A DNA stretch of 43,840 bases, taken from positions 1 through 43,840 of the forward strand of contig JAICJC010000012.1 of assembly GCA_025928655.1 (NCBI GenBank). Reading direction: 5' to 3'. Below the pieces are notes generated by a model. The model made no database searches, was not told the origin of the DNA, and worked only from the letters and a program-made list of their open reading frames with translations. This DNA comes from Thermoleophilia bacterium (GTDB lineage Bacteria > Actinomycetota > Thermoleophilia > Gaiellales > JAICJC01). The translations under genes were made by a program, and so were the position numbers. The first letter of the stretch is position 1; each line of letters opens with the position of its first letter. Positions 27,086 to 40,041 of the stretch are shown one piece after another.

Positions 27086-28297
27086 TCATGGTACGGGCGC
27101 CTCGGCGCGAGGCAAATCCAGGAGCCGGTGAAGCGCGATCCCGAACCGGTCGGTGCGAAGCGTCACGCCGGCCCGGCGGGCCTCGGCGAAGCGCAGCGAC
27201 ATCTCGAGCAGCTCCAGGCACACGATCACGCGGGCGGCGCCGGCCGGCTGATCGAGGCCGGCGAGCCAGCCGGGCGCCCGCTCGAGCGTGTCGGCGACGG
27301 CGCGCGGGGGCGGCAGCTTGCGCGCGTTCAGCGCCACCAGCAGGCCGTAATGGGCGGCGTCGATGCCGACGGGGACGCCGTCGCGGCTGCGCTCCCAGTC
27401 CCACACCACGAGCCGTCCCTCGAGCCGGCGCATGTTCCAGGGCGTCCAGTCGCCGTGGCCGCGCCCGAACCGCATGAGCGTGTCGCCCGACTCGGCCGCG
27501 ATGGCGTCGGCGGCCGCGTCGAGGTCGGCCCCGACGGCGGAGATGCGCGCCCGCACGTCCGCCCACCAGTCGCTCTCGGCGAGCGCCGAGCGCGTGACCA
27601 TCCCGCCCAGCGCCAGCTCGTGCGTGGCGTCGCGGGGCGGGTCGAACGCGGACACCGGCGCACCCCCGGTGAGCGGCTCGACGACGGTCACGGTGTTGCC
27701 CTGCCACTCGAGCGCGTGCAGCAGGCGTGAGACCCGGAAGGTGCGCGGCGGGTCGGGCCGCGCCGCGAAGCTCGCGAGCGCCTCGGCCTCCGCGGCGACC
27801 AGCGGTCGGGTGAGCTCGTTCCAGCCCACCTTCGCGTAGGCGAGCACGCGGCCGTTCGGCTCGCCCACCTGGACGACCGGCTTGCCGTTCGGCCGGGTGG
27901 CGCCGACGCGCACGACGAGCTCGACGTCCCGGCCGCCGAGGAGCGCCGCCAGGCGGTGGCGCAGCACGAGGTCGGGCAGCTCGGCGTCGGCGACGCCGGC
28001 CGCGACGTGCACGCCGACCCGATCGCGCCCCAGCCTCTGGGGCAGGCCGCTGCGCAGGGCCGCGACGGCAGCCTGGGTGGCCGCCGTCCCCTTTCGGCCG
28101 GGCATGAGCAGGTACTGGCGGGCGGCCGCGGCCGCCCCGCGGCGCGACTCGGGGGGGACGAGCATGCCGGGACGCCGCAGCGACGGGAGCACGACGTAGG
28201 AGTCGACGCGCCGGAATCCCGGGGGCGCCTGCGGGCCCACGTGGACGCGCTCGTCTGCGGCTGCGAGTCCGCGCATGCAGGCGTCTGCGTCCCTCAT
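27086..28297 (-). CDS. Phosphotransferase/aminoglycoside phosphotransferase-like (kinase-fold) protein
   Basis: GRGHGDWTPWNMRRLEGRLVVWDWERSRDGVPVGID: HGDxxxxN and D-x-E catalytic motif; TACGGT hexamer 7 nt before ATG 28297. Confidence 0.75.
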   Translation of the reverse strand: MRDADACMRGLAAADERVHVGPQAPPGFRRVDSYVVLPSLRRPGMLVPPESRRGAAAAARQYLLMPGRKGTAATQAAVAALRSGLPQRLGRDRVGVHVAAGVADAELPDLVLRHRLAALLGGRDVELVVRVGATRPNGKPVVQVGEPNGRVLAYAKVGWNELTRPLVAAEAEALASFAARPDPPRTFRVSRLLHALEWQGNTVTVVEPLTGGAPVSAFDPPRDATHELALGGMVTRSALAESDWWADVRARISAVGADLDAAADAIAAESGDTLMRFGRGHGDWTPWNMRRLEGRLVVWDWERSRDGVPVGIDAAHYGLLVALNARKLPPPRAVADTLERAPGWLAGLDQPAGAARVIVCLELLEMSLRFAEARRAGVTLRTDRFGIALHRLLDLPRAEAPVP

Positions 28298-28363
28298 GCC
28301 GAACACCGTACCCGTGCGCCGCCCGAGAATCCGTCAATCACGTGCTAATACTGCCCGTGTGCA

Positions 28364-28541: not shown

Positions 28542-30197
28542 GTGGAAAACGGTTGGTATGAGTCGGTCTCGCTGAGCGACTACATCGGCGTCGTCTGGCG
28601 GCGCAAGTGGATCGCCCTCCTCGTGACCGTGATGGTCACCGCGGCCGCCATCGGGTTCTCCGAGCGCCAGCAGAAGCTCTACGCCGCCTCGTCGCAGCTC
28701 GTGAACACGACCGCCGCGGCCCAGTCCTCGAACGGGAAGAACACGACGACGAACGCGTGGTCGACCGCGCACGCGCCGCTCTTTGCGACGACCGCGGGCG
28801 CCAAGTGGATCGTCGATCAGGCGCACGTGAGCGGCATCAGCGCCCAGCAGCTCCTGAACGAGACCAAGGTGAGCGCCGATCCGGTCGTCGACGCCGTCGA
28901 CTTCACCGTCACCGATCCGAACGCCAAGACCGCGCAGCAGCTCGCCAACTACTGGGCGATCTACGGCGGCGGCTACTCGAACCATCTCGACCAGCAGCCG
29001 CTGCAGAGCGAGCTCACCAACTATCAGAACTCGCTCGACCAGGTCAACACCGACATCCAGAACTACCTGAACGCGAAGAATCGCGGCCAGACGCCGACGC
29101 CGAATCAGACCGCCACCTACAACCTGAATCTGGGGCTGAAGACCACCTATCAGGACAAGATCCTGAAGATCTCGTCGCAGCTGCAGAGCTCGGGTCTCCA
29201 GCTGGCGCCGAAGGGCGCGCAGACCGCCGCCCAGACCCAGCCGAAGACGGCGCGCAACGCCGGCATCGGCCTGGTCCTCGGCCTGATCCTCGGGATCATC
29301 CTGGCCTTCCTCCAGGATCTGCTCGACACGCGCGTCCGCACCGTGGCCGAGGTCGGCCGCCGGCTGCGGCTGCCGCTGCTCGCGAGCATCCCGGCCCGGC
29401 CGCGCGCGCTGCGCGAGTACGCCGTCGTGCTGCTCTCGCCGCAGGGCGCGGCCCAGATGCCGACCGCCGAGGCGTACCGCATCTTCAAGCTGAACCTGGC
29501 CACGACGCTGCGGCGCGGCATGAAGGTGATCATGTTCACGAGCGCCTCCGACGACGAGGGCACGTCGACCACGGTCGCGAACCTCGCCGTGGCGCTCACC
29601 CGCGCCGGCCAGCACGTCGTCGTGGTCGACGCGAACATGCGCCGGCCCGCGCTCGGCAGCTTCTTCGGCCTCGACGACCGGATGGGCGTGAGCGACATCC
29701 TGTCCGGCCACAGCCAGCTCGGCGACGCGCTCACGATCGTGGACGTCAGCCGTGAGCACCCGGTCGAGGTCGGCTCGAACGGCACCACCGCTACCAGCGG
29801 CGGCGGCCTGCTCGAGGTGCTGCCCGCCGGCCCGATCCCGGGCGATGCGGCCGAGCTCCTCGACAGCCGGGCGATGACCGAGCTCATGCGCGAGCTCCGC
29901 GGCCGGGCGGACGTCGTCCTGGTCGACGCCCCGCCGATGCTGCCCGTCACCGACGCCATGGTGCTCGGCACCAAGGTCGACGCCGTGGTCGCGGTCGCCC
30001 GCGCCCGGCTCGCCAGCCGGCCGCACCTGGTCGCCCTCGGCCGCGCGCTCGACGCGTGCGCCGCGCCCCGCCTCGGCTTCGTGTTCGTGGGCGGCGCCCC
30101 CGACGAGTCGCAGGAGTACGGCGGCTACCTCGGCGGGACGGGCCCCGCGGACGCCATGCTGCATCCGAGCCACACACGGGAGACCGAGCTCCTGTGA
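28542..30197 (+). CDS. Wzz/BY-kinase-like polysaccharide co-polymerase (chain-length determinant fused to CpsD/CapB-like ATPase), degenerate Walker A
   Basis: ESVSLSDYIGVVWRRKWIALLVTVMVTAAAIGF; second TM NAGIGLVLGLILGIILAFLQDLLDTRVRT; FTSASDDEGTSTTVANLAVALTRAGQHVVVVDANMRRPALG; DVVLVDAPPMLPVTDA. Confidence 0.9.
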   Translation: MENGWYESVSLSDYIGVVWRRKWIALLVTVMVTAAAIGFSERQQKLYAASSQLVNTTAAAQSSNGKNTTTNAWSTAHAPLFATTAGAKWIVDQAHVSGISAQQLLNETKVSADPVVDAVDFTVTDPNAKTAQQLANYWAIYGGGYSNHLDQQPLQSELTNYQNSLDQVNTDIQNYLNAKNRGQTPTPNQTATYNLNLGLKTTYQDKILKISSQLQSSGLQLAPKGAQTAAQTQPKTARNAGIGLVLGLILGIILAFLQDLLDTRVRTVAEVGRRLRLPLLASIPARPRALREYAVVLLSPQGAAQMPTAEAYRIFKLNLATTLRRGMKVIMFTSASDDEGTSTTVANLAVALTRAGQHVVVVDANMRRPALGSFFGLDDRMGVSDILSGHSQLGDALTIVDVSREHPVEVGSNGTTATSGGGLLEVLPAGPIPGDAAELLDSRAMTELMRELRGRADVVLVDAPPMLPVTDAMVLGTKVDAVVAVARARLASRPHLVALGRALDACAAPRLGFVFVGGAPDESQEYGGYLGGTGPADAMLHPSHTRETELL

Positions 30198-30643
30198 AGG
30201 TGATGCTCGTCTGCTCGTCCGGCGGCCACCTCATCCAGCTCCACCAACTCCAGCCCTGGTGGAGCAAGCATGAGCGCAAGTGGGTCACGTTCGACCTGCC
30301 GGACAGCCGCTCCCTGCTCGAGGGTGAGGACGTCGCCTGGGCGCACTTCCCGACGACGCGCAACCTGCGCAACACCGTCCGGAACCTGATCCTTGCCGCG
30401 CGCATGGTGCCGCGCTTCCGCCCGGACGTGGTGGTGTCGGACGGCGCCGGCGTCGCCTTCCCGTTCTTCATCGTGGCCCGGATCATGCGCGTGCCGACGG
30501 TCTACCTCGAGGTGTACGACCGCATCGACTCGCCCACGCTGACCGGCAAGCTGTGCCGGCCCTTCACGAGCCTGTTCGTGGTGCAGTGGGAGGAGCAGCG
30601 CAAGTTCTACCCCGGCGCGCGCGTGATCGGCGGCCTCTTCTGA
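30194..30643 (+). CDS. PssD/Alg14-like glycosyltransferase subunit
   Basis: VKVMLVCSSGGHLIQLHQLQPWWSKHERKWVTFD...RFRPDVVVSDGAGVAFPFFIVARIMRVPTVYLEVYDRIDSPTLTGKL. Confidence 0.9.
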   Translation: MKVMLVCSSGGHLIQLHQLQPWWSKHERKWVTFDLPDSRSLLEGEDVAWAHFPTTRNLRNTVRNLILAARMVPRFRPDVVVSDGAGVAFPFFIVARIMRVPTVYLEVYDRIDSPTLTGKLCRPFTSLFVVQWEEQRKFYPGARVIGGLF

Positions 30644-31218
30644 GCGCCCAGCTGCCACTCGTCTTCGTCTCCGTCGGCACGGACTTCCATCCGTTCGACC
30701 GGATGTCGCGCTGGGTCGACGCCTGGCTCGAGGGCGGCGGCTCCGAGGTCGCCCGCTGCTTCGTGCAGACCGGCACCTCCGCCGTGCCCCGCCTGGCCGA
30801 GCACCGCGACTACCTCGGCTACGAGGAGATGGAGGCGATGGTGCGCGAGGCGGCGGCCGTCGTCTGCCACGGCGGGCCGGGCACCATCATGCTCGCTTCG
30901 AACCTCGGCAAGCGCCCGATCGTGGTCCCGCGCCGGAAGAGCCTCGGGGAGCACGTCGACAACCACCAGTGCGCGTTCGCGGAGCGGATCGCCCGCGACG
31001 GGGCCATCCTGCTGGCCGGATCCGAGGAGGACCTGCGCTCGCACCTCGACGGCACGCTCGGCCTCGCCGGCGCAGCCGCCGAGATGCCGGTCGCGGGTGC
31101 CGGCCCCGGGCCCGCCGTCGAGATGTTCGAGCAGCTGATCGACGAGCTCCTCGACCGCACGCGGACGGCCAGACGGCGGGCGGTCGGCTCGGCCTCGGCG
31201 ACCCGGAGGCGGGCATGA
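30640..31218 (+). CDS. PssE/Alg13-like glycosyltransferase subunit (probable CTG or non-canonical start overlapping the upstream TGA)
   Basis: LPLVFVSVGTDFHPFDRMSRWVDAWLE...MVREAAAVVCHGGPGTIMLASNLGKRPIVVPRRKSLGEHVDNHQ. Confidence 0.88.
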   Translation: MSAQLPLVFVSVGTDFHPFDRMSRWVDAWLEGGGSEVARCFVQTGTSAVPRLAEHRDYLGYEEMEAMVREAAAVVCHGGPGTIMLASNLGKRPIVVPRRKSLGEHVDNHQCAFAERIARDGAILLAGSEEDLRSHLDGTLGLAGAAAEMPVAGAGPGPAVEMFEQLIDELLDRTRTARRRAVGSASATRRRA

Positions 31219-32156
31219 GCGACGTCCCCGTGCTCTACATCGGCGGGTGGGGGAGGAGCGGGTCGACCCTGCTCGCCCACGTCCTGGCCGAGGTGCCCGG
31301 CTTCGTCTCCGTCGGCGAGCTGCGCTACGTGTGGCAGGCGGGGCCGGAGAGCAACGAGCTCTGCGGTTGCGGCCTCGCGTTCGACGAGTGCCCGTTCTGG
31401 ACGGCGGTCGGCCAGGAGGCCTTCGGCGGGTGGGAGAACGTCGACGTTGGGGAGGTGCTCGAGCTCGAGAGCGCCGTCCTGCGCCACCGCAACGTGCCGC
31501 TGCTCCTGATGGGCCGGCTGGCGCCCGAGCACCGGCGCAAGGTCGAGCGCTACGCCGACCTCACCGCCAGCCTCTACCGGGCGATCCAGAAGGTTTCGGG
31601 GGCCGAGGTGGTCGTCGATTCCACCAAGAACCCGCCCTACGCCTACTTCCTGCGGGCCGCGCAGGCCGCGGGCCTGCGGCTGCGGGTGCTCCACCTCGTC
31701 CGTGACAGCCGCGGCGCCGCCCACTCGTGGGCGAAGCGCATGTCCCGGCCCGAGATCACGAACGGCGACGCCTTCTTCCAGGAGTTCTCCCCGCTGCGCG
31801 CCGGCGTCCGCTGGATGGAGTGCAACCTCGCGTTCGAGGTGCTGCGGCGGTTGCGCGTCCCGACCGTCGGCATGCGGTACGAGTCGCTCGCGACCGATCC
31901 GCGCGCGGAGCTCGAGCGCATGTTCGCCGAGTTGGGGGAGGCCGGCCGGCACGACCTCTCGGCCGTCGGCGACTCGGTCGAGGTGTCGGGGCAGCACAGC
32001 GTGCGCGGGAACCCGATGCGGTTCGCGCACGGCCGCCAGCAGGTGCGCGCCGACGAGGCCTGGCGCACCGGGATGGCGAGGAAGACGAGATCGATCGTCG
32101 TCCTGGTCACCTGGCCGCTTCTGCTCCGCTACGGCTACCTGCGCCAGCACGCATAA
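31215..32156 (+). CDS. Sulfotransferase family protein 1
   Basis: YIGGWGRSGSTLLAHVLAEVPGFVSVGELRYVW (PAPS 5'-phosphosulfate-binding loop); LHLVRDSRGAAHSWAKRM (3'-phosphate-binding region). Confidence 0.9.
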   Translation: MSDVPVLYIGGWGRSGSTLLAHVLAEVPGFVSVGELRYVWQAGPESNELCGCGLAFDECPFWTAVGQEAFGGWENVDVGEVLELESAVLRHRNVPLLLMGRLAPEHRRKVERYADLTASLYRAIQKVSGAEVVVDSTKNPPYAYFLRAAQAAGLRLRVLHLVRDSRGAAHSWAKRMSRPEITNGDAFFQEFSPLRAGVRWMECNLAFEVLRRLRVPTVGMRYESLATDPRAELERMFAELGEAGRHDLSAVGDSVEVSGQHSVRGNPMRFAHGRQQVRADEAWRTGMARKTRSIVVLVTWPLLLRYGYLRQHA

Positions 32157-32164
32157 CGAGAAGC

Positions 32165-33496
32165 ATGCGTCGGGTTCAGGCTGCACCGGTCAATCTCAAC
32201 CTGCCTCCGGGCTGGGTGCTCCCGAGAGGGTGGCAGGCCTACGCCATCTTCGGGCTGCTGCCGCTGTGGTGGCTGATCGGCCTCTCCGCGATCATGTGGG
32301 TGCTGATCGCGCTGCCGCTGGGCGTGTCGCTCGCGTGGCGGGGCGGCCTCAAGGCGCCGCGCCGGTTCGGGATCTGGCTGCTGCTCGTGATGTGGATCTG
32401 CGCGTCCGGGATGGAGCTCTCGAATCCGGGCCGGATGGTCGCCTGGAGCTGGCGGGCGTCGTTCTACATGGCGGGCACGGTGATCTTCCTCTACATCGTG
32501 AACGTCCCCGAGTGGCGGCTCTCGATCCGCTCGATCGTGAACGCGCTCGGGTTCTACTGGATCATGGTCGTCTTCGGCGGGTGGCTGGGGGTGCTCTTCC
32601 CCAACGTCAGCTTCCCGAGCCCGATGCAGATCGTGCTCCCGCACGGGCTCCTGCACAACACGTACGTCTACGAGCACGTGCACCTGCAGTTCGCGGAGGT
32701 GCAGCACTTCCTCGGCTACCCGGTCGGACGCCCGGAGACCTTCTTCGCCTACACCAACGCGTGGGGCTCGAGCTTCGCGATGCTGACGCCGTTCGCCATC
32801 TGCGCGATGAGCCAGGCCCGGTCGAGAGCGTGGAAGCGGACGCTCCAGATCACCATGGCGCTCTCGCTCGTCCCGGTCGTGTTCTCGCTCAACCGCGGCC
32901 TGTGGCTCAGCCTCGGCATCGGCATCGTGTACGCGACGATCCGGTTCGCGATGCGGGGCGACTTCCGCCAGGTCGGCCGCGTGGCGGCCGTGATCGTGAT
33001 CCTGGCGGGCGTCGTGACGCTCAGCCCGCTCGGCGACCTGGCCCAGGGGCGGTTCCAGCATAAGACCGGTGACGCCGGCCGCATCCAGCGCGACCAGGAG
33101 GCGCAGCAGCGGCTGCTCGACTCACCCGCCCTCGGGTTCGGTGCGCCGCTGCCGTCGACCGACCCGACCCAGAGCTCCGTCGGCACCGAGAGCGAGATCT
33201 TCCTGCTCGTGTTCTCGCACGGCATTCCCGGGCTGGGCCTGTGGATGCTGTGGTTCTTCTACACGCTCTTCCGCTCCGCCCGGTGGCGATCGCCATGGGC
33301 GTTCTGGGCGCACGTGACGCTCCTGATAGCCCTGATCCAGGTGCCCTACTACGAGATCACCGAGCGCCTCCCGCTCATGCTGGTGGCGGCGGCGATCACC
33401 TACCGTGCGATGATGCGGGAGCCGGAGGCGGACCCGGAGCCCGTGGAGAAACGGCGGCTTCGACCGGCGCGGCGGAAAGCGCTCGTCCCGGCATGA
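32165..33496 (+). CDS. O-antigen ligase/polymerase (Wzy/WaaL)-like membrane protein
   Basis: Polytopic membrane protein; SLNRGLWLSLGIGIVYATIRF and TESEIFLLVFSHGIPGLGLWMLWFFYTLF typical of the Wzy_C/WaaL fold. Confidence 0.82.
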   Translation: MRRVQAAPVNLNLPPGWVLPRGWQAYAIFGLLPLWWLIGLSAIMWVLIALPLGVSLAWRGGLKAPRRFGIWLLLVMWICASGMELSNPGRMVAWSWRASFYMAGTVIFLYIVNVPEWRLSIRSIVNALGFYWIMVVFGGWLGVLFPNVSFPSPMQIVLPHGLLHNTYVYEHVHLQFAEVQHFLGYPVGRPETFFAYTNAWGSSFAMLTPFAICAMSQARSRAWKRTLQITMALSLVPVVFSLNRGLWLSLGIGIVYATIRFAMRGDFRQVGRVAAVIVILAGVVTLSPLGDLAQGRFQHKTGDAGRIQRDQEAQQRLLDSPALGFGAPLPSTDPTQSSVGTESEIFLLVFSHGIPGLGLWMLWFFYTLFRSARWRSPWAFWAHVTLLIALIQVPYYEITERLPLMLVAAAITYRAMMREPEADPEPVEKRRLRPARRKALVPA

Positions 33497-34305
33497 CGAT
33501 GGACTGGAATGCGCACACGTTCGTGTTCGTCGGCGGTCTGCATCGCAGCGGGACGACGCTGCTCGCCCGCTGTCTGGCCGAGCACCCCGGCGTGAGCGGC
33601 TTCTCGGGCACGGGCGCCCGCGAGGACGAGGGCCAGCACCTGCAGACGGTGTACCGGCCGGGGCGCGTCTACGGCGGGCCCGGGCGGTTCGGCTTCGACC
33701 CCGAGGCGCACCTGACCGAGACCTCGCCGCTCGTGTCCGAGGACAGCCGCGACCGGCTACTGGAGGAGTGGGGGCGGCACTGGGACCTGTCGCGGCAGGT
33801 GCTCGTCGAGAAATCGCCGCCGAACCTGATCCGGATGCGGTTCCTGCAGGCGCTCTTCCCGGATTCCTTGATGGTGATGATGCTCCGCCATCCGATCGCC
33901 GTCGCCGCCGCGACCCGGCAGTTCGGGCGCGCCCGGCGGATGTGGAAGCGGATGACCTACTCGTCGCTGATCGAGCACTGGCTGCACTGCCACGAGCTCA
34001 TGCTCGAGGACGCCGCCTCGATCGACCACCTGCTCGTGATGCGCTACGAGGAGCTCGTCGCGAGCCCGGACGAGCGCCTGGCCGACGTGTTCCGGTTCGC
34101 CGGCGTCGAGCCGCGCCCGAGCGGCCTGCACGTCCGCACCGGCATCAACGACGGCTACTTCCGGCGCTGGTCGCTCGCGCATCACAACCCCGGCACCGGG
34201 TCCGACATCGAGCGGGCGATGGAGGAGCTGGAGGGGCGGGTCGCGCGCTTCGGCTACAGCCTGCAGCGGCCGCAGTCGCTGGCGCCGCTCGAGGAGGTCG
34301 GCTAG
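33493..34305 (+). CDS. Sulfotransferase family protein 2
   Basis: FVGGLHRSGTTLLARCLAEHPGVSGF; LVEKSPPNLIRMRFLQALFPDSLMVMMLRHPIAVAAAT. Confidence 0.9.
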   Translation: MTMDWNAHTFVFVGGLHRSGTTLLARCLAEHPGVSGFSGTGAREDEGQHLQTVYRPGRVYGGPGRFGFDPEAHLTETSPLVSEDSRDRLLEEWGRHWDLSRQVLVEKSPPNLIRMRFLQALFPDSLMVMMLRHPIAVAAATRQFGRARRMWKRMTYSSLIEHWLHCHELMLEDAASIDHLLVMRYEELVASPDERLADVFRFAGVEPRPSGLHVRTGINDGYFRRWSLAHHNPGTGSDIERAMEELEGRVARFGYSLQRPQSLAPLEEVG

Positions 34306-35228
34306 TGCCCCGCGAGCGCGGATCGAAGAACGACAACTACTCGCGCCTGCCGGCGCCCGTCATCACCGCCGGCCGCGAGGCCGTCACCGGCTGGAACATG
34401 CTCACGGCGGGGGGCCGGCCGCTCCCGGACTTCCTCATCATCGGCGCGCAGCGCAGCGGCACGACCTCGCTCTACCGCTACCTGCTCGAGCACCCGCAGG
34501 TGATGCCGGCGATCCCGAGCAAGGGCGTGCACTACTTCGATCTGCACCCGGAGCGCTCCCTGCGCTGGTACCGGGCGCACTTCCCGACGCAGCGGGCGCG
34601 GCGGGCGCGGGAGCGCCGCTTCGGCGGCCCGATCGTCACCGGCGAGGGCAGCCCCTACTACCTCTTCCACCCGCACGGCCCGGCCCGGGCGGCGGCCGCC
34701 GTGCCCCGTGCCCGCGTGATCGCGATGCTGCGCGACCCGGTGGAGCGGGCCTACTCGCACTACCGGCAGGAGTACGCGCGCGGGTTCGAGGACGCCGAGA
34801 CCTTCGAGGAGGCGCTCGACCTCGAGCCGTCCCGACTCGCCGGCGAGCGCGAGCGGATGCTGGCCGACCCGGGCTACTCGAGCCGCGCGGTGCAGCACCA
34901 CGCCTACGTCGCCCGGGGCGAGTACGTCGATCAGCTGACGGCCTGGCGGGAGCACTTCCCGGCGGAGCAGATGCACGTCATCTGTGCCGAGCGCTTCTTC
35001 GCCGACCCGGCGGCGGCCTACGCCGGCGTGCTGCGCTTCCTGGGCCTCCCCGACCCGCCGAAAACGCCCGGGTTCAAGGCCTACAATGCCCGTCCGGCCG
35101 CGGGCATGGCGGCCGGGACACGCGAGCGGCTCGAGGCGCACTACGCGGAGCCGAACCGGAGGCTGGAGGAGTTCCTGGGCATGCGGATGGGCTGGCCGAC
35201 CGCGGAGCGCGACAGGGCGGAACGGTGA
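34305..35228 (+). CDS. Sulfotransferase family protein 3 (N-deacetylase/sulfotransferase-domain-like)
   Basis: PDFLIIGAQRSGTTSLYRYLLEHPQVMPAIPSKGVHYFDLH...RVIAMLRDPVERAYSHYRQEYARGFEDAETFEEAL. Confidence 0.93.
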   Translation: MPRERGSKNDNYSRLPAPVITAGREAVTGWNMLTAGGRPLPDFLIIGAQRSGTTSLYRYLLEHPQVMPAIPSKGVHYFDLHPERSLRWYRAHFPTQRARRARERRFGGPIVTGEGSPYYLFHPHGPARAAAAVPRARVIAMLRDPVERAYSHYRQEYARGFEDAETFEEALDLEPSRLAGERERMLADPGYSSRAVQHHAYVARGEYVDQLTAWREHFPAEQMHVICAERFFADPAAAYAGVLRFLGLPDPPKTPGFKAYNARPAAGMAAGTRERLEAHYAEPNRRLEEFLGMRMGWPTAERDRAER

Positions 35229-36811
35229 CCGCCGTCGACGAGCCCGCTCCGGCGCTTCGCGACCGGGCGGACGACCTCAAGATGGTCGCCCGCGGCGGGT
35301 CGCTCAACTTCATCGGCGCCGTCGCGAACGGGCTCTTCCAGTTCGCGCTCGTGGTCGTCGTCACCCGCTCGCTGACGAAGAGCGCGTCGGGCGCCTTCTT
35401 CGAGGCGATCGCGCTCTTTCTGATCCTCTCGAACACGGCCGAGCTGGGCGCCGACACCGGCCTCACCCGCATGATCCCGAGCTACCGGGTCAGCGGCCGG
35501 GTCGCCGACGTGCGCCGTTCCCTGCGGGTGGGGCTCGTCCCCTCGTTCGCGGCCGGGGTGCTGCTCGCGGCCGTCTCGTTCGCGCTCGCCTCGCCGCTCG
35601 CGAGCATCTTCACCAACCACCGCCACGAGGACGCCGGCGCCGTCGCAACCTACATCCGCGTCCTGGCGGTGTTCCTGCCGCTCTCGTCCGCCTACACGGT
35701 GGCCGTCGCAGCCACGCGCGGCTTCGGCACGATGGTGCCCAACGCGCTCGTCGACCGGATCGGGAAGTCGGCCGCGCAGACGCTGGCCGTCGCGGTGGTG
35801 GTGCTCGCCGGCGGGGGCAGCTTCGCCGTCGCCGTCTCGTGGAGCCTGCCGATCGGCATCGCCTTCGTCGTCACCCTGCTCTGGCTGGGACGGCTCGTCC
35901 ACCGGGTGGAGCGGCGCGAGCAGGCCACGAAGCCGGCCACGGAGATCGGGAAGCTCTACCGTGAGTTCTGGATCTTCACGGCGCCGCGCGGGCTGACCGG
36001 TGTCTTCCAGGTGACGACCCTGTGGGTCGGCACGCTGCTCGTGGGGTCGCTCATGGACACGGCCCACGCCTCGATCTACACGGCATCGACCCGCTACCTG
36101 GTCGCCGGCAGCGTCGTCAACATGGCGGTCATCCAGGCGATCGGGCCCAAGCTCTCCGAGCTGCTCACGGCGGGCGCGCGCGAGCGGACGCAGGACGTGT
36201 ATCAGGTCGCCACCGCGTGGCTCATCACGATGGCGTGGCCGATGTACATCGGCCTGGCGGTGTTCGCCCCGTTGCTCCTGAAGGTGTTCAAGCCCCAGTA
36301 CGTGAGCGGCACCTCGTCGCTCGAGATCCTGGCCGTGACGATGCTGGTCGCGACGGGCGTGGGCCCGGTCGACATGGTGCTCCTGATGGGCGGGCGCAGC
36401 TTCTGGAACCTCTTCAACGTGATCGTCGCCCTGTCGGTGAACCTCGCGCTCAGCTTCCTGCTCATCCCGCGCATCGGCATCGCCGGCGCGGCGGTCGCCT
36501 GGGCCGCCAGCATCCTCGTGAACAACGTCGCCCCGCTCCTGGAGGTGCGGGCCTTCCTGAAGGTGCACCCGGTCGGGCGCGGCTTCCCGGTCGCGGCCGG
36601 CGCCGCGCTCGTGTGCTACGGCGTGCTCGGGATGCTGCTGCGGGTGACGATGGGGACCACGATCCCCGCGCTCGTCATCTGCATCGTCTTCGGGACCGCC
36701 GGGTACGCCTGGCTGCTCTGGAAGTTCCGCGACCGGGTCGAGCTGGTGCTGCTCGGCGGCACGCTCAAGTCGCGCCGGCGCCGCCGCGCGCAGCCCGTCG
36801 CGACGACCTGA
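35225..36811 (+). CDS. Wzx-like polysaccharide flippase (MVF/MATE-type)
   Basis: MVARGGSLNFIGAVANGLFQFALVVVVTRSLTKSASGAFFEAIALFLILSNTAELGADTGLTRMIPSYR; ~12 to 14 hydrophobic segments. Confidence 0.9.
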   Translation: MTAVDEPAPALRDRADDLKMVARGGSLNFIGAVANGLFQFALVVVVTRSLTKSASGAFFEAIALFLILSNTAELGADTGLTRMIPSYRVSGRVADVRRSLRVGLVPSFAAGVLLAAVSFALASPLASIFTNHRHEDAGAVATYIRVLAVFLPLSSAYTVAVAATRGFGTMVPNALVDRIGKSAAQTLAVAVVVLAGGGSFAVAVSWSLPIGIAFVVTLLWLGRLVHRVERREQATKPATEIGKLYREFWIFTAPRGLTGVFQVTTLWVGTLLVGSLMDTAHASIYTASTRYLVAGSVVNMAVIQAIGPKLSELLTAGARERTQDVYQVATAWLITMAWPMYIGLAVFAPLLLKVFKPQYVSGTSSLEILAVTMLVATGVGPVDMVLLMGGRSFWNLFNVIVALSVNLALSFLLIPRIGIAGAAVAWAASILVNNVAPLLEVRAFLKVHPVGRGFPVAAGAALVCYGVLGMLLRVTMGTTIPALVICIVFGTAGYAWLLWKFRDRVELVLLGGTLKSRRRRRAQPVATT

Positions 36812-37585
36812 TCACTCCTGGTCGAGGTCGCCGGCGCTGACGCCCACGACCCCCTCGACGTCGGTCAGGGCCGACACGAGGCCCGTGATCTCGCCGCTTC
36901 CCTGCACCGTCATCGCCACCTGGACGGTCGCCGGCCTGGTCGTCCCGGCCTCCGTGCGGTCGCGGCGCTGATCGCGGCCGCGTGACTCTTCCAGGTCGGC
37001 GCCGCGCGTGACCGCCAGGTCGCTGACCGTGAACCCGCGCGCGGTGCAGACCGTGAGCGCCTCGCGCAGGACGCCGCGCCCGTCGAGATAGTCGATCCGC
37101 AGGTGGGCCAGCGCCCAGCGCGCCCCCGGCAGCCGGTGCACGAGAGGGGTGTAGGCCAGGATGACGATGAAATAGCCGGCGGTGCCGGCGACGGCGAGCC
37201 GCGGCAGGCCCGAGCCGCAGGCCATCCCGATGGCCGCCGTGAGCCAGACCGCCGCGGCGGTCGTGAGCCCGCGGACGGCGTCGCGGCGGACGAAGATCAG
37301 GCCGCCGCCGATGAAGCCGATGCCGGTCACGATCTGGGCCGCGATCCGGCTCGGGTCGAGCACGACGGTGCGGGCCTCGAGGACGTCGCCGAAGCCGTAC
37401 TTGCTGACCAGCATGAAGAGGGCGGCGCCGAACCCGACCAGCGTGTAGGTGCGCAGGCCGGCGCTGCGCTGGCGGAACTCGCGCTCGAGCCCGATCAGGC
37501 TCGCGAGCGCAAACGCCAGCAGCAGATCGGCGAGCTGCTCCCACCCCTGGCCCGATACCTGGCTGAAGGCCGACCCGAGAACCAT
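36812..37585 (-). CDS. MgtC/SapB family membrane protein with C-terminal ACT-like region
   Basis: LLLAFALASLIGLEREFRQRSAGLRTYTLVGFGAALFMLVSKYGF...RIAAQIVTGIGFIGGGLIFVRRDAVRGLTTAAAVWLTAAIGMACG. Confidence 0.95.
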   Translation of the reverse strand: MVLGSAFSQVSGQGWEQLADLLLAFALASLIGLEREFRQRSAGLRTYTLVGFGAALFMLVSKYGFGDVLEARTVVLDPSRIAAQIVTGIGFIGGGLIFVRRDAVRGLTTAAAVWLTAAIGMACGSGLPRLAVAGTAGYFIVILAYTPLVHRLPGARWALAHLRIDYLDGRGVLREALTVCTARGFTVSDLAVTRGADLEESRGRDQRRDRTEAGTTRPATVQVAMTVQGSGEITGLVSALTDVEGVVGVSAGDLDQE

Positions 37586-37602: not shown

Positions 37603-38865
37603 CTACTGCGAGGCGGCCGCGCGCATCGTCGCCGCGAGCTGCGAGGCCTCGGGCGTCAACGTGTCGTCGTCGTTCAGGAGCGCGAACCCGCCGCCCTTGG
37701 CGAGAAGCCACCGCGTCCAGCTGACGCCGTCCTTCGCGAAGAGCTGCAGCATCTGCGACTGGTACTCCTCGGCTCCCGGGTCGCCGGTGTGGATGCCCCA
37801 CTCGCCGACGAGCAGCGGGATGCCCCACTGGCGGGTGCGCTCCAGCGGCACCTGCAGCACCCGCGCCTGGGACGCCTCCGTGCCGGTGTACGCGGGGGTG
37901 TCCTGGTTGTGCGTGTCCGACCAGGACGGCACCCAGTTGTCGCCCGCCGAGTCGAGCCCGCCCGAGCCGCCGTTGAAGTAGTCGTGCCAGTCGAGGGCCA
38001 TGTGGTCGAGCGAGCCGAACGGCTTCAGGTCGGCGGTGCCGACCCCCTCGCCGCCGCCGCGGCACATGATGAACACGGTGCGGGTCGGGTCGACCTTCTG
38101 GATGGCCCGGCGCATCGGCGCCTGCCAGGCGAGCATCGTGTTCGTCGCCTCGGTCGAGTCGCCGAGCTTGCCCCCGTGGGGCTCGTTCATGAGCTCGTAG
38201 CCGATCACGTTCGGGGCGTTCGCGTAGCGGTCGGCGATCATCGTGACGAACGCCTTGTAGTAGGCCTGCGACCGGGGGGCCTCGCTCGTCCAGAACGCCG
38301 CCTCGGCATGCGCCCGGCCGCTGTGATTGTCCGGGAAGCGGCCGTTCGCGTAGTACCAGTCGGGCACGCCGCTCCCACGGCAGACCGTCTTGCCCGCCGA
38401 GCATGTGCCCTGGGCGAAGTACGGCGACCAGTGGAACTGGTGGAAGTCGATCAGCACGTTGATGTGGGCGGCCTGCAGGGCCGCGACGATGCGGTCGAGC
38501 TTGGAGAGCGTCTTGCTGTCCCAGCGGTAGTGGCCGTCCTTCGGCGCCTGCGGCTCGATCTGGTTCCAGCCCACGTAGACGCGGGCCATGTTCGCGCCCA
38601 TGCGCTGCGCGGTGGGGGCGAGGAACGACATCCCGACCGACATGTCGAACCCCTGCAGGACGACGGGCCGCCCGTTCTGGTCGACGAACTTGGCGCCGGA
38701 GGTCGTCACCCACGGCTTGACGATGTCCGTCGCCCTGGTCGTATGGACGGGCGGCGCGGGCGGCGGCAGCGGGCCGGTGCCGGCGAAGCTGCCGGGGTCG
38801 CCTCCGCCGCAGCCGGCGGTCAGGATCAGGGCGCAGGCGAGCGCCGCGAGCGCGCCGAGCCTCAC
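37603..38865 (-). CDS. Glycoside hydrolase family 5-like lipoprotein (cellulase superfamily)
   Basis: Lipobox ILTAGCGG; NVLIDFHQFHWSP; NVIGYELMNEPHGG (acid/base); IPLLVGEWGIHTGD (nucleophile). Confidence 0.92.
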   Translation of the reverse strand: MRLGALAALACALILTAGCGGGDPGSFAGTGPLPPPAPPVHTTRATDIVKPWVTTSGAKFVDQNGRPVVLQGFDMSVGMSFLAPTAQRMGANMARVYVGWNQIEPQAPKDGHYRWDSKTLSKLDRIVAALQAAHINVLIDFHQFHWSPYFAQGTCSAGKTVCRGSGVPDWYYANGRFPDNHSGRAHAEAAFWTSEAPRSQAYYKAFVTMIADRYANAPNVIGYELMNEPHGGKLGDSTEATNTMLAWQAPMRRAIQKVDPTRTVFIMCRGGGEGVGTADLKPFGSLDHMALDWHDYFNGGSGGLDSAGDNWVPSWSDTHNQDTPAYTGTEASQARVLQVPLERTRQWGIPLLVGEWGIHTGDPGAEEYQSQMLQLFAKDGVSWTRWLLAKGGGFALLNDDDTLTPEASQLAATMRAAASQ

Positions 38866-39896
38866 AGGCCGAACGCTCGCAGGAGGGCCTGGCCGGAAGG
38901 GCCGGCAGCGTGGCCGAGGCGCGGGACGCCCAGCAGTCGCTCCGTCGCGCCCAGCAGGCTGTAGTGGCTGAGCCGGGCCGGGGTGCGCGTGCCCGGCTTG
39001 ACGAACGGCGAAACGACGATCAGGGGCACCTGGCAGCTGCCGCCCGCGGGCCGGGCTGTGCAGTCGATCCGCAGCGGCTTCGCCGGCGCGCCCTGGTTCC
39101 AGGTGACGAAGATGGCCGTAGCGCCGGATTTGTAGGACGGCATCTTCGTGAGCGCCCCGATCCAGCGCCGCAGCCAGAAGTCGGCCCGGGCCAGGAAGAC
39201 GGCCCGCTTCAGCTTGCCGCCGCAGTGCTTGTTGAAGCCCGTGTCGTGGCAGCTGTCCGGCGCGATGAGGGTGAAGGGCGGGAGCGTGTTGCGCCCGATC
39301 AGCTGCCGGAGCGGTCCCTGGCTGGGCGACCCCAGCGGGAGGTCCGAAGTCGCGCAACGGGGCGCCGTCAGGTACGTCGGCGGATTCGAGAGCCTGGAGT
39401 AGTGGGACTGGAGCCCGTCGAGCTTCGCGCAGGCGCTGTGCATCCCGCCGATGAAGGCCCGCCAGCGCACCTGGGAGAGCAGGCTCGGCGCCGTCGTCGT
39501 GCAGGCGGTGTCGCAGGAGTTGTGCACGAGCCCGTGCGGGTCGCCCGCGAGCGCACCGACGTCGTTTGCGATCGCCGGATGGGTGATCGTCGAGTACCGC
39601 GTCGCCAGGCCGCACTCCTGCGCGAGCTGGTTCATGAACGGGGCCACCCGCGGCTTGCCGATCACGTGGCCGTAGCCCTGGGTGCCCATCCAGATCCAGA
39701 CGACGTGCGTGATCTTCGCCGTCTGCCCGTTTTTCGTGCCGCACGTCGGCGTCACCGTCGGCGTGTTCGACGTCGGGGGCTGCGTCACGACCGGCGGCGC
39801 GTGCGAGGCCGCATGCTCCGTCGGGCCGTTGCGGCTCGCGACGAACCCGATCAGGACCGCGACGACGACCGCGCCCGGGAGTACCCATCTCCACAT
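38862..39896 (-). CDS. Exported phosphoesterase family protein (acid phosphatase/phospholipase C-like)
   Basis: KITHVVWIWMGTQGYGHVIGKPRVAPFMNQLAQECGLATRYSTITHPAIANDVGALAG...GATAIFVTWNQG...QVPLIVVSPFVKPGTRTPARLSHYSLLGATERLLGVPRLGHA. Confidence 0.9.
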   Translation of the reverse strand: MWRWVLPGAVVVAVLIGFVASRNGPTEHAASHAPPVVTQPPTSNTPTVTPTCGTKNGQTAKITHVVWIWMGTQGYGHVIGKPRVAPFMNQLAQECGLATRYSTITHPAIANDVGALAGDPHGLVHNSCDTACTTTAPSLLSQVRWRAFIGGMHSACAKLDGLQSHYSRLSNPPTYLTAPRCATSDLPLGSPSQGPLRQLIGRNTLPPFTLIAPDSCHDTGFNKHCGGKLKRAVFLARADFWLRRWIGALTKMPSYKSGATAIFVTWNQGAPAKPLRIDCTARPAGGSCQVPLIVVSPFVKPGTRTPARLSHYSLLGATERLLGVPRLGHAAGPSGQALLRAFGL

Positions 39897-40041
39897 CACC
39901 CCAGTGTACGTGTGCCTGGTTGCAGTGGAATAGGCGAATTGCGATTCGCCCGGCCGCTTTGTGACGACTTGCGAATTTTGTTGAGAGCCTTTGTAAAGGG
40001 GATCGACGCACGGCGGCCGGGCCGCTAGCGTGGGATCCGAA

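Follow-up and report, generated by a model that had tools for sequence, protein, structure and literature searches.

The operon at positions 28542-36811 of the 43,840 nucleotide stretch of Thermoleophilia DNA analyzed here (the window), together with a divergent kinase gene beside it, very likely directs the synthesis of a sulfated surface polysaccharide through a Wzx/Wzy pathway, as a three-sulfotransferase (ST) variant of the wps-1-type cluster. The original prediction of a candidate sulfated surface polysaccharide system is supported by conserved PAPS motifs, a conserved neighborhood and the presence of Sat and CysC in the genome.

The interval 28542-36811 is filled by eight ORFs, all on the + strand; the original prediction correctly gave them as co-directional but counted seven genes, although its own list holds eight. 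The overlaps of 1-4 nt that it described are present at every junction but ST1-Wzy, where there is an 8-nt gap. Its boundaries hold for these genes but not at the left edge, where the divergent kinase gene at 27086-28306 was omitted; judged by gene content, the unit extends leftward to this gene, which is a core member in relatives. The features are:
27086-28306, - strand: APH-fold (small-molecule/sugar kinase-like) protein, WpsI homolog (synteny, fold, motifs)
28542-30197, + strand: Wzz-type chain-length protein with BY-kinase-like C-terminal domain (TIGR01007, 110.7 bits)
30194-30643, + strand: PssD/Alg14-like glycosyltransferase half (NF041549, 110.9 bits, cut-off 110; PF08660)
~30640-31218, + strand: PssE/Alg13-like glycosyltransferase half (PF04101, 47.5 bits; NF041548, 64.9 bits, below the cut-off of 120)
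31215-32156, + strand: ST1, WpsB homolog (PF13469, 36 bits)
32165-33496, + strand: Wzy-like polymerase/O-antigen ligase family protein, WpsJ homolog (PF04932, 31.9 bits, cut-off 31.7)
33493-34305, + strand: ST2, the extra sulfotransferase (PF13469, 93 bits)
34305-35228, + strand: ST3, WpsH homolog, heparan-sulfate 3-OST/NDST-like (PF13469, 63 bits; PF00685, 59 bits)
35225-36811, + strand: Wzx-like flippase, WpsG homolog (NCBIfam WZX_like, 21 bits, below cut-off)
37603-38865, - strand: GH5 glycoside hydrolase with a lipoprotein-type signal, LTAGC (PF00150, 107.7 bits)

Genes were called with a simple home-made caller, whose starts for minor ORFs are unreliable. The PssE gene probably starts at a CTG at 30640 inside a CTGA overlap that is conserved in three genomes, and ST3 starts at GTG 34305 or ATG 34398. 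A Pfam search of the operon proteins confirmed the Alg14, Glyco_tran_28_C and Wzy_C domains; the Wzx protein has no Pfam match and a weak NCBIfam WZX_like match, and its hydropathy profile displays many hydrophobic segments (TM counts are rough).

The neighborhood is conserved, a point on which the original prediction had been staked: the block, the kinase and the GH5 gene are syntenic in all three genus members, and PssD of the two relatives is 97% and 80% identical to that of the window. Among Actinomycetota outside Streptomyces, 79 loci with an ST1 homolog contain genes for ST3 (65), Wzx (64), Wzy (61), the kinase (59), Wzz (55) and PssD (55), as well as the supply and priming genes CysQ (49), PHPT (37), CysN (35) and CysD (33), and about 55 of the 79 have the order Wzy>kinase>ST3>Wzx. 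At least two STs are present in 52 of the 54 full-length loci, and 43 of the 54 have a PAPS-supply or recycling gene. Seeding loci with the kinase rather than ST1 recovers the same cluster. In the taxonomic family to which the Rhizocola locus belongs, 325 of 355 genomes encode a member of the kinase family, and all 12 loci examined there have ST3, Wzx, Wzy and Wzz; in the window's own class the kinase is patchy (7/399 genomes). By these comparisons a cluster whose core consists of homologs of the kinase, Wzx, Wzy, Wzz and two of the sulfotransferases occurs across Actinomycetota. PssD/PssE, not GT2/WecG, are also found in many other actinobacterial relatives, and relatives' clusters include a priming transferase as well as genes for PAPS supply, either CysD/N/Q or Sat-CysC.

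All three sulfotransferases exceed the Pfam cut-off, and their PAPS loops differ as originally quoted (GGWGRSGSTLL, GGLHRSGTTLL and GAQRSGTTSL); the proteins scarcely align beyond the P-loop. Across the whole genome PF13469 matches eight times, on six contigs (two of the matches lie in the single ST3 frame), so three such genes within 4 kb far exceed random placement. The PAPS-binding residues, whose loss was to count against the idea, are retained: the P-loop and the 3'-phosphate-binding Arg motifs are conserved on alignment, family-wide, and ST2 is without the typical Ser in the latter (RHPIAVAAATR). The ST1 family has the conserved motifs P-loop, VDS[ST]K, VRDxR..S and CxCG..F..C.xW, and its Foldseek matches are TPST and the CurM and Ols sulfotransferases. 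ST2, whose profile match is TPST2 (2.9e-7), lies between Wzy and ST3 in a slot held by the kinase in most relatives; it has homologs in two other wps-type clusters (51% identical in L094 and 46% in L118) and a 55% identical one on contig C175 of its own genome. By such matches ST1 and ST2 are no closer to sugar sulfotransferases than to tyrosyl-protein and polyketide ones.

That the STs sulfate something else, such as protein tyrosines or a lipid or secondary metabolite made beside the glycan operon, would agree with TPST and the CurM/Ols enzymes being the closest solved structures to ST1 and ST2. However, the ST genes are wedged among glycan genes by overlaps of 1-4 nt with neighbors that are fixed in dozens of loci, ST3 is of the heparan-sulfate type, PKS/NRPS or lipid genes are absent from the region examined, and the A. 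missouriensis wps mutants have a sporangium phenotype in common (PMC13390465). Small-molecule acceptors had been raised at the outset as a reason for doubt, and no small-molecule pathway is seen near the operon. Acceptors other than the glycan are thus quite improbable.

ST3 matches 3rnl (8.8e-40), 3-OST-3 (5.8e-33) and NDST1 (6.8e-28). The position of the catalytic Glu before HFFD in 3-OST is Gly in the ST3 family (KGVH[YFW]FD in 62 of 64 members, Glu in 1/64). This conserved Gly, the degenerate nature of the neighboring Wzz enzyme in most of its family, and the no more than mild phenotype of the wpsB mutant (PMC13390465) might indicate that the polymer is made but that some STs are inactive leftovers or glycan-binding helpers, leaving it unsulfated or singly sulfated. 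Yet the PAPS-site motifs are kept family-wide, relatives cluster PAPS genes with STs, and loss of wpsH or AMIS_7390 has severe effects (PMC13390465). In addition, dN/dS of ST1-3 is 0.13-0.27 against genome G121, by which measure all three appear to be under purifying selection. Inactivity of some STs is therefore unlikely, though of the alternatives considered here it has the best prospects.

The window has no genes for supplying PAPS, the donor in a sulfated-polysaccharide pathway. The original prediction had marked PAPS synthesis genes for a search, and Sat and CysC are encoded elsewhere in the genome, at a C89/C153 contig break; the genome also has CysH. A missing PAPS supply can thus be dismissed, as can the missing primer as an oddity. 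The statement that there is no priming transferase is true of the operon but not of the genome, which has three PHPT genes elsewhere. One of these shares 48% identity with the PHPT that G112 carries inside its cluster, but lies alone among metabolic genes. None of the clusters of the three genus members has a PAPS-supply gene, primer or GT2 in cis, and no close GT2 homolog was found in the genus. The window's genome is a draft, 82% complete.

The Wzz protein matches the CapA/CapB kinase 4jmp (2.9e-23), so its BY-kinase likeness was correctly recognized, but its Walker A is DDEGTSTT, with GTS for GKS in the window and in both genus relatives, and GKS is kept in only 2 of 47 aligned family members. 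An active BY-kinase is rejected since the Walker A Lys is missing; the protein is probably not a kinase. Its conserved chain-length type does fit a polymerase. This bears on whether the Wzy_C protein might instead be a ligase and the polymer an anchored glycan of teichoic-acid-like or capsule type: Wzy_C spans both O-antigen ligases and polymerases, and the match is borderline. Among the operon's genes no other candidate for an anchoring ligase was noticed, and a ligase role seems unlikely.

The divergent kinase, with orthologs at the same position in both genus relatives, has no Pfam match, and a sequence search of the PDB gave nothing. Its AF2 model (pLDDT 91) has Foldseek matches to fructosamine-3-kinase, homoserine kinase, APH(4), glucosamine kinase and maltokinase, and its family has invariant K159, E173, H284-G-D286, N291 and D303. 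The fold search thus favors APH-type small-molecule kinases over the protein kinase named in the wps-1 paper. The GH5 protein matches endoglycoceramidase II (1.1e-10); its gene lies at the same cluster end in both genus relatives, and it may act on the operon's product.

From the observed gene content, synteny, motifs, folds and PAPS and priming genes we infer the substrates, the order of steps and sulfation itself, as follows. A PHPT encoded elsewhere would load the first sugar onto undecaprenyl phosphate and PssD-PssE would add the next. The three STs, placed in the cytoplasm because no signal peptide is seen in them and PAPS is cytosolic, would then, before export, sulfate different positions of the lipid-linked repeat, drawing on PAPS from Sat and CysC, and the APH-fold kinase would phosphorylate a sugar, either in the repeat or in its precursor. 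Wzx would flip the unit and Wzy polymerize it, with the Wzz protein setting length without tyrosine-kinase activity; outside, the GH5 lipoprotein could trim or release the polymer. Counted against this scheme are the genus clusters' lack of a PAPS gene, primer or GT2, the Gly of ST3, the TPST/polyketide type of ST1 and ST2, the patchiness of the kinase in the class and the draft state of the genome.

One genome with a wps-1-like locus is presumably that of A. missouriensis 431. Its locus has the order GT2-ST1-WecG-DUF4262-GH26-MTase-Wzx-ST3-kinase-Wzy-Wzz, then Sat/APS kinase, in agreement with wps-1 (AMIS_7280-7380, WpsA-K), described in 2026, and the adjacent AMIS_7390 (PMC13390465). There, sporangium formation or spore release is impaired when either ST, the kinase, Wzx, Wzy, Wzz or AMIS_7390 is deleted, knockouts have distorted sporangia, and a sulfated glycan is predicted rather than chemically demonstrated (PMC13390465), as in every other carrier of the cluster. 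The window proteins are 43% (WpsB), 46% (WpsH), 37% (WpsG), 30% (WpsJ), 34% (WpsI) and 24% (WpsK) identical to their homologs, and both clusters have the Wzx/Wzy pathway, at least two STs, an APH-fold kinase and an outward glycoside hydrolase alongside. In the window the kinase is adjacent to the operon but divergent, and so still lies beside Wzx, Wzy and ST genes as in wps-1-type clusters. The window differs in its third ST, in PssD/PssE replacing GT2 (WpsA) and WecG (WpsC), in GH5 replacing GH26 (WpsE), in having no methyltransferase (WpsF) or DUF4262 (WpsD) in the block, in having no PAPS genes in cis, and in its Thermoleophilia host; wps-1 acts in sporangium formation. By homology the operon is a three-sulfotransferase variant of a cluster type previously described from one sporangium-forming actinomycete only.

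Bacterial sulfated polysaccharides are said to be known only from cyanobacteria, with wps-1 as a single case (PMC13390465); marine Gram-negatives are also reported to have them. The survey finds the wps-1 core in many actinobacterial families and Thermoleophilia, tied to PAPS supply, and the AMIS_7390 (Sat/APS kinase) defect left unexplained in PMC13390465 fits such a supply. There is about an even chance that much of Actinomycetota ordinarily bears PAPS-dependent sulfated polysaccharides on its surface, nearly throughout Micromonosporaceae and in scattered lineages as far as Thermoleophilia, with one conserved cluster adding sulfate (and phosphate) before export to a short repeat, perhaps a disaccharide, to give a regularly sulfated glycosaminoglycan-like polymer. 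Such a polymer would be unlike the post-polymerization sulfation patterns of animals. The A. missouriensis mutants already in hand make sulfation testable, and the operon offers three dissimilar candidates for bacterial carbohydrate sulfotransferases, one heparan-sulfate-like. ST3 resembles 3-OST and NDST in its profile matches but has Gly for the catalytic Glu, no TM anchor seen and a bacterial operon context, and in the proposed model would act before polymerization.

The xss (synechan) cluster of Synechocystis 6803 shares a Wzx/Wzy sulfated exopolysaccharide and two STs of distinct subfamilies, but has eight glycosyltransferases, its own regulators, a plasmid location and chemically shown sulfate; the parts of that report consulted mention no APH-fold kinase, and the comparison is one of described gene content and pathway (PMC8205485). 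The sulfated capsule locus of Vibrio sp. KMM 8419 shares STs and PAPS synthesis genes (cysNDC) but belongs to a Gram-negative with an ABC-transporter pathway and a solved polysaccharide structure; that study treats the joint presence of PAPS genes and STs in a polysaccharide locus as a hallmark of the making of sulfated polysaccharides (PMC11641403).

The operon at 28542-36811 holds eight co-directional genes, rather than the seven counted in the original prediction, which itself listed eight, and these are joined by 1-4 nt overlaps as it had stated for most, except at the junction of the first sulfotransferase gene with wzy (an 8-nt gap). Pfam and NCBIfam back the identities of the Wzz/BY-kinase-like protein, PssD, PssE and the three sulfotransferases (ST1, 31215-32156; ST2, 33493-34305; ST3, 34305-35228); the Wzy/WaaL-like assignment is consistent with a borderline Pfam match to Wzy_C, and that of Wzx with weak NCBIfam support plus homology. 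PssE may use a CTG start or be a frameshift fusion, judging from its sequence, since no ATG, GTG or TTG lies near its conserved N-terminus (30612-30712) and three genomes share a CTG that runs into the PssD stop (CTGA).

The neighborhood is conserved: in two genus relatives, G121 and G120, all eight genes are collinear with the flanking kinase (left) and GH5 (right) genes, with 77-97% and 51-80% identity to the window, respectively. The flanking genes in the window are:

27086-28306, minus strand, divergent APH-fold kinase
36812-37585, minus strand, MgtC-family gene, between wzx and GH5
37603-38865, minus strand, GH5 lipoprotein

No counterpart of the MgtC-family gene was called in the genus relatives. 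A phosphoesterase-family gene (38862-39899) overlaps the GH5 gene start, and a homolog of it also adjoins GH5 in G121. Simple NG86 estimates of dN/dS against G121 are 0.13 (ST1), 0.27 (ST2), 0.15 (ST3) and 0.14 (kinase).

An ST1 alignment scanned against genome contigs yielded 397 loci, the best 80 of which include Micromonospora, Nocardiopsis, Glycomyces, Actinomadura, Blastococcus and others. Their common gene set is PHPT (priming transferase), CysQ, CysD, CysN, ST1, GT2, PssD/PssE or WecG, Wzx, ST3, kinase, Wzy and Wzz, often with a GH26-like protein; the Cys assignments were checked by NCBIfam on one member each, with CysQ under the curated cut-off. In 79 loci from the best 80 of 397, every successive pair in the order Wzy>kinase>ST3>Wzx was seen 55-56 times, raw counts uncorrected for relatedness in which Micromonospora and Nocardiopsis predominate; these conservation figures were obtained with a crude gene caller and with tblastn, for loci chosen by ST1 similarity. 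A kinase-seeded search, independent of ST1, recovered the same cluster in other families. The kinase is patchily distributed (7/399 genomes of the class, 17/397 sampled from the phylum); it is present in 325/355 genomes of the Rhizocola hellebori family, which we take to be the Micromonosporaceae, though some hits are weak, with E about 1e-33, and could be paralogs. Of 12 loci fetched from this family, 8 have a Sat-CysC gene close to the cluster.

The three sulfotransferases are indeed distinct, sharing little beyond the P-loop in pairwise protein comparisons. The predicted ST1 fold (pLDDT 94) resembles TPST and CurM/Ols sulfotransferases, and a CxCG..F..C.xW motif is invariant in its family. 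ST3-family profiles match HS 3-OST and NDST, but the family has Gly at the position of the catalytic Glu of 3-OSTs; His76 is invariant and could be the catalytic base. ST2 is the extra enzyme, in the slot held by the kinase in most relatives; proteins resembling it are encoded in two Streptosporangiales wps-type clusters and at a further glycan locus of the window genome (contig C175, 1793-10163; 55% ST2 paralog, WecG, Wzy, GT4). In G121 (C43, 6280-14082), ST2-like and ST1-like genes lie near ComA/ComB-like (phosphosulfolactate synthase/phosphatase), ATP-grasp and methyltransferase genes. The window genome has another comA next to cysH, and four further Sulfotransfer_3 loci (C161, C78, C191, C42).

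The kinase model (pLDDT 91) matches APH-fold small-molecule kinases, and its catalytic residues are intact by alignment. The Wzz C-domain matches BY-kinases by sequence, but tyrosine-kinase activity is unlikely because the Walker-A Lys is replaced in the window, G121, G120 and most of the family. The Wzz-BYK of the C175 locus retains a GKS Walker A.

The window genome, a 193-contig draft (82% complete), contains PAPS-synthesis genes, Sat and a CysC split over contig ends, with CysH beside one part and Sat beside the other. The operon does lack a priming transferase, as noted originally, but the genome has three PHPTs; one, genus-conserved and standing alone, is the best match to the PHPT inside the cluster of genome G112. 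A search for a cluster-type GT2 found no close homolog; unless another glycosyltransferase takes part, the polymer repeat could therefore be as small as a disaccharide. We infer sulfation, sugar identity and the order of steps.

Tezuka and Ohnishi described wps-1 in Actinoplanes missouriensis (PMC13390465). One locus of genome G800 reads GT2, sulfotransferase, WecG, DUF4262, GH26, methyltransferase, Wzx, sulfotransferase, kinase, Wzy, Wzz and then a Sat/APS-kinase protein, the published order of WpsA-K plus AMIS_7390 (PMC13390465), and its kinase lies near 0.786 Mb, the place expected for AMIS_7360 from its gene number. The case for equating this locus with wps-1 and G800 with A. missouriensis 431 is strong, with gene order and kinase position among its grounds. 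Sporangia are severely defective in the mutants of wpsA, C, G, H, I, J, K and AMIS_7390 and mildly so in the wpsB mutant; the authors called the AMIS_7390 result unexpected, tying the enzyme to sulfur amino acids (PMC13390465). We propose that AMIS_7390 supplies PAPS to WpsB and WpsH, the homologs of ST1 and ST3.
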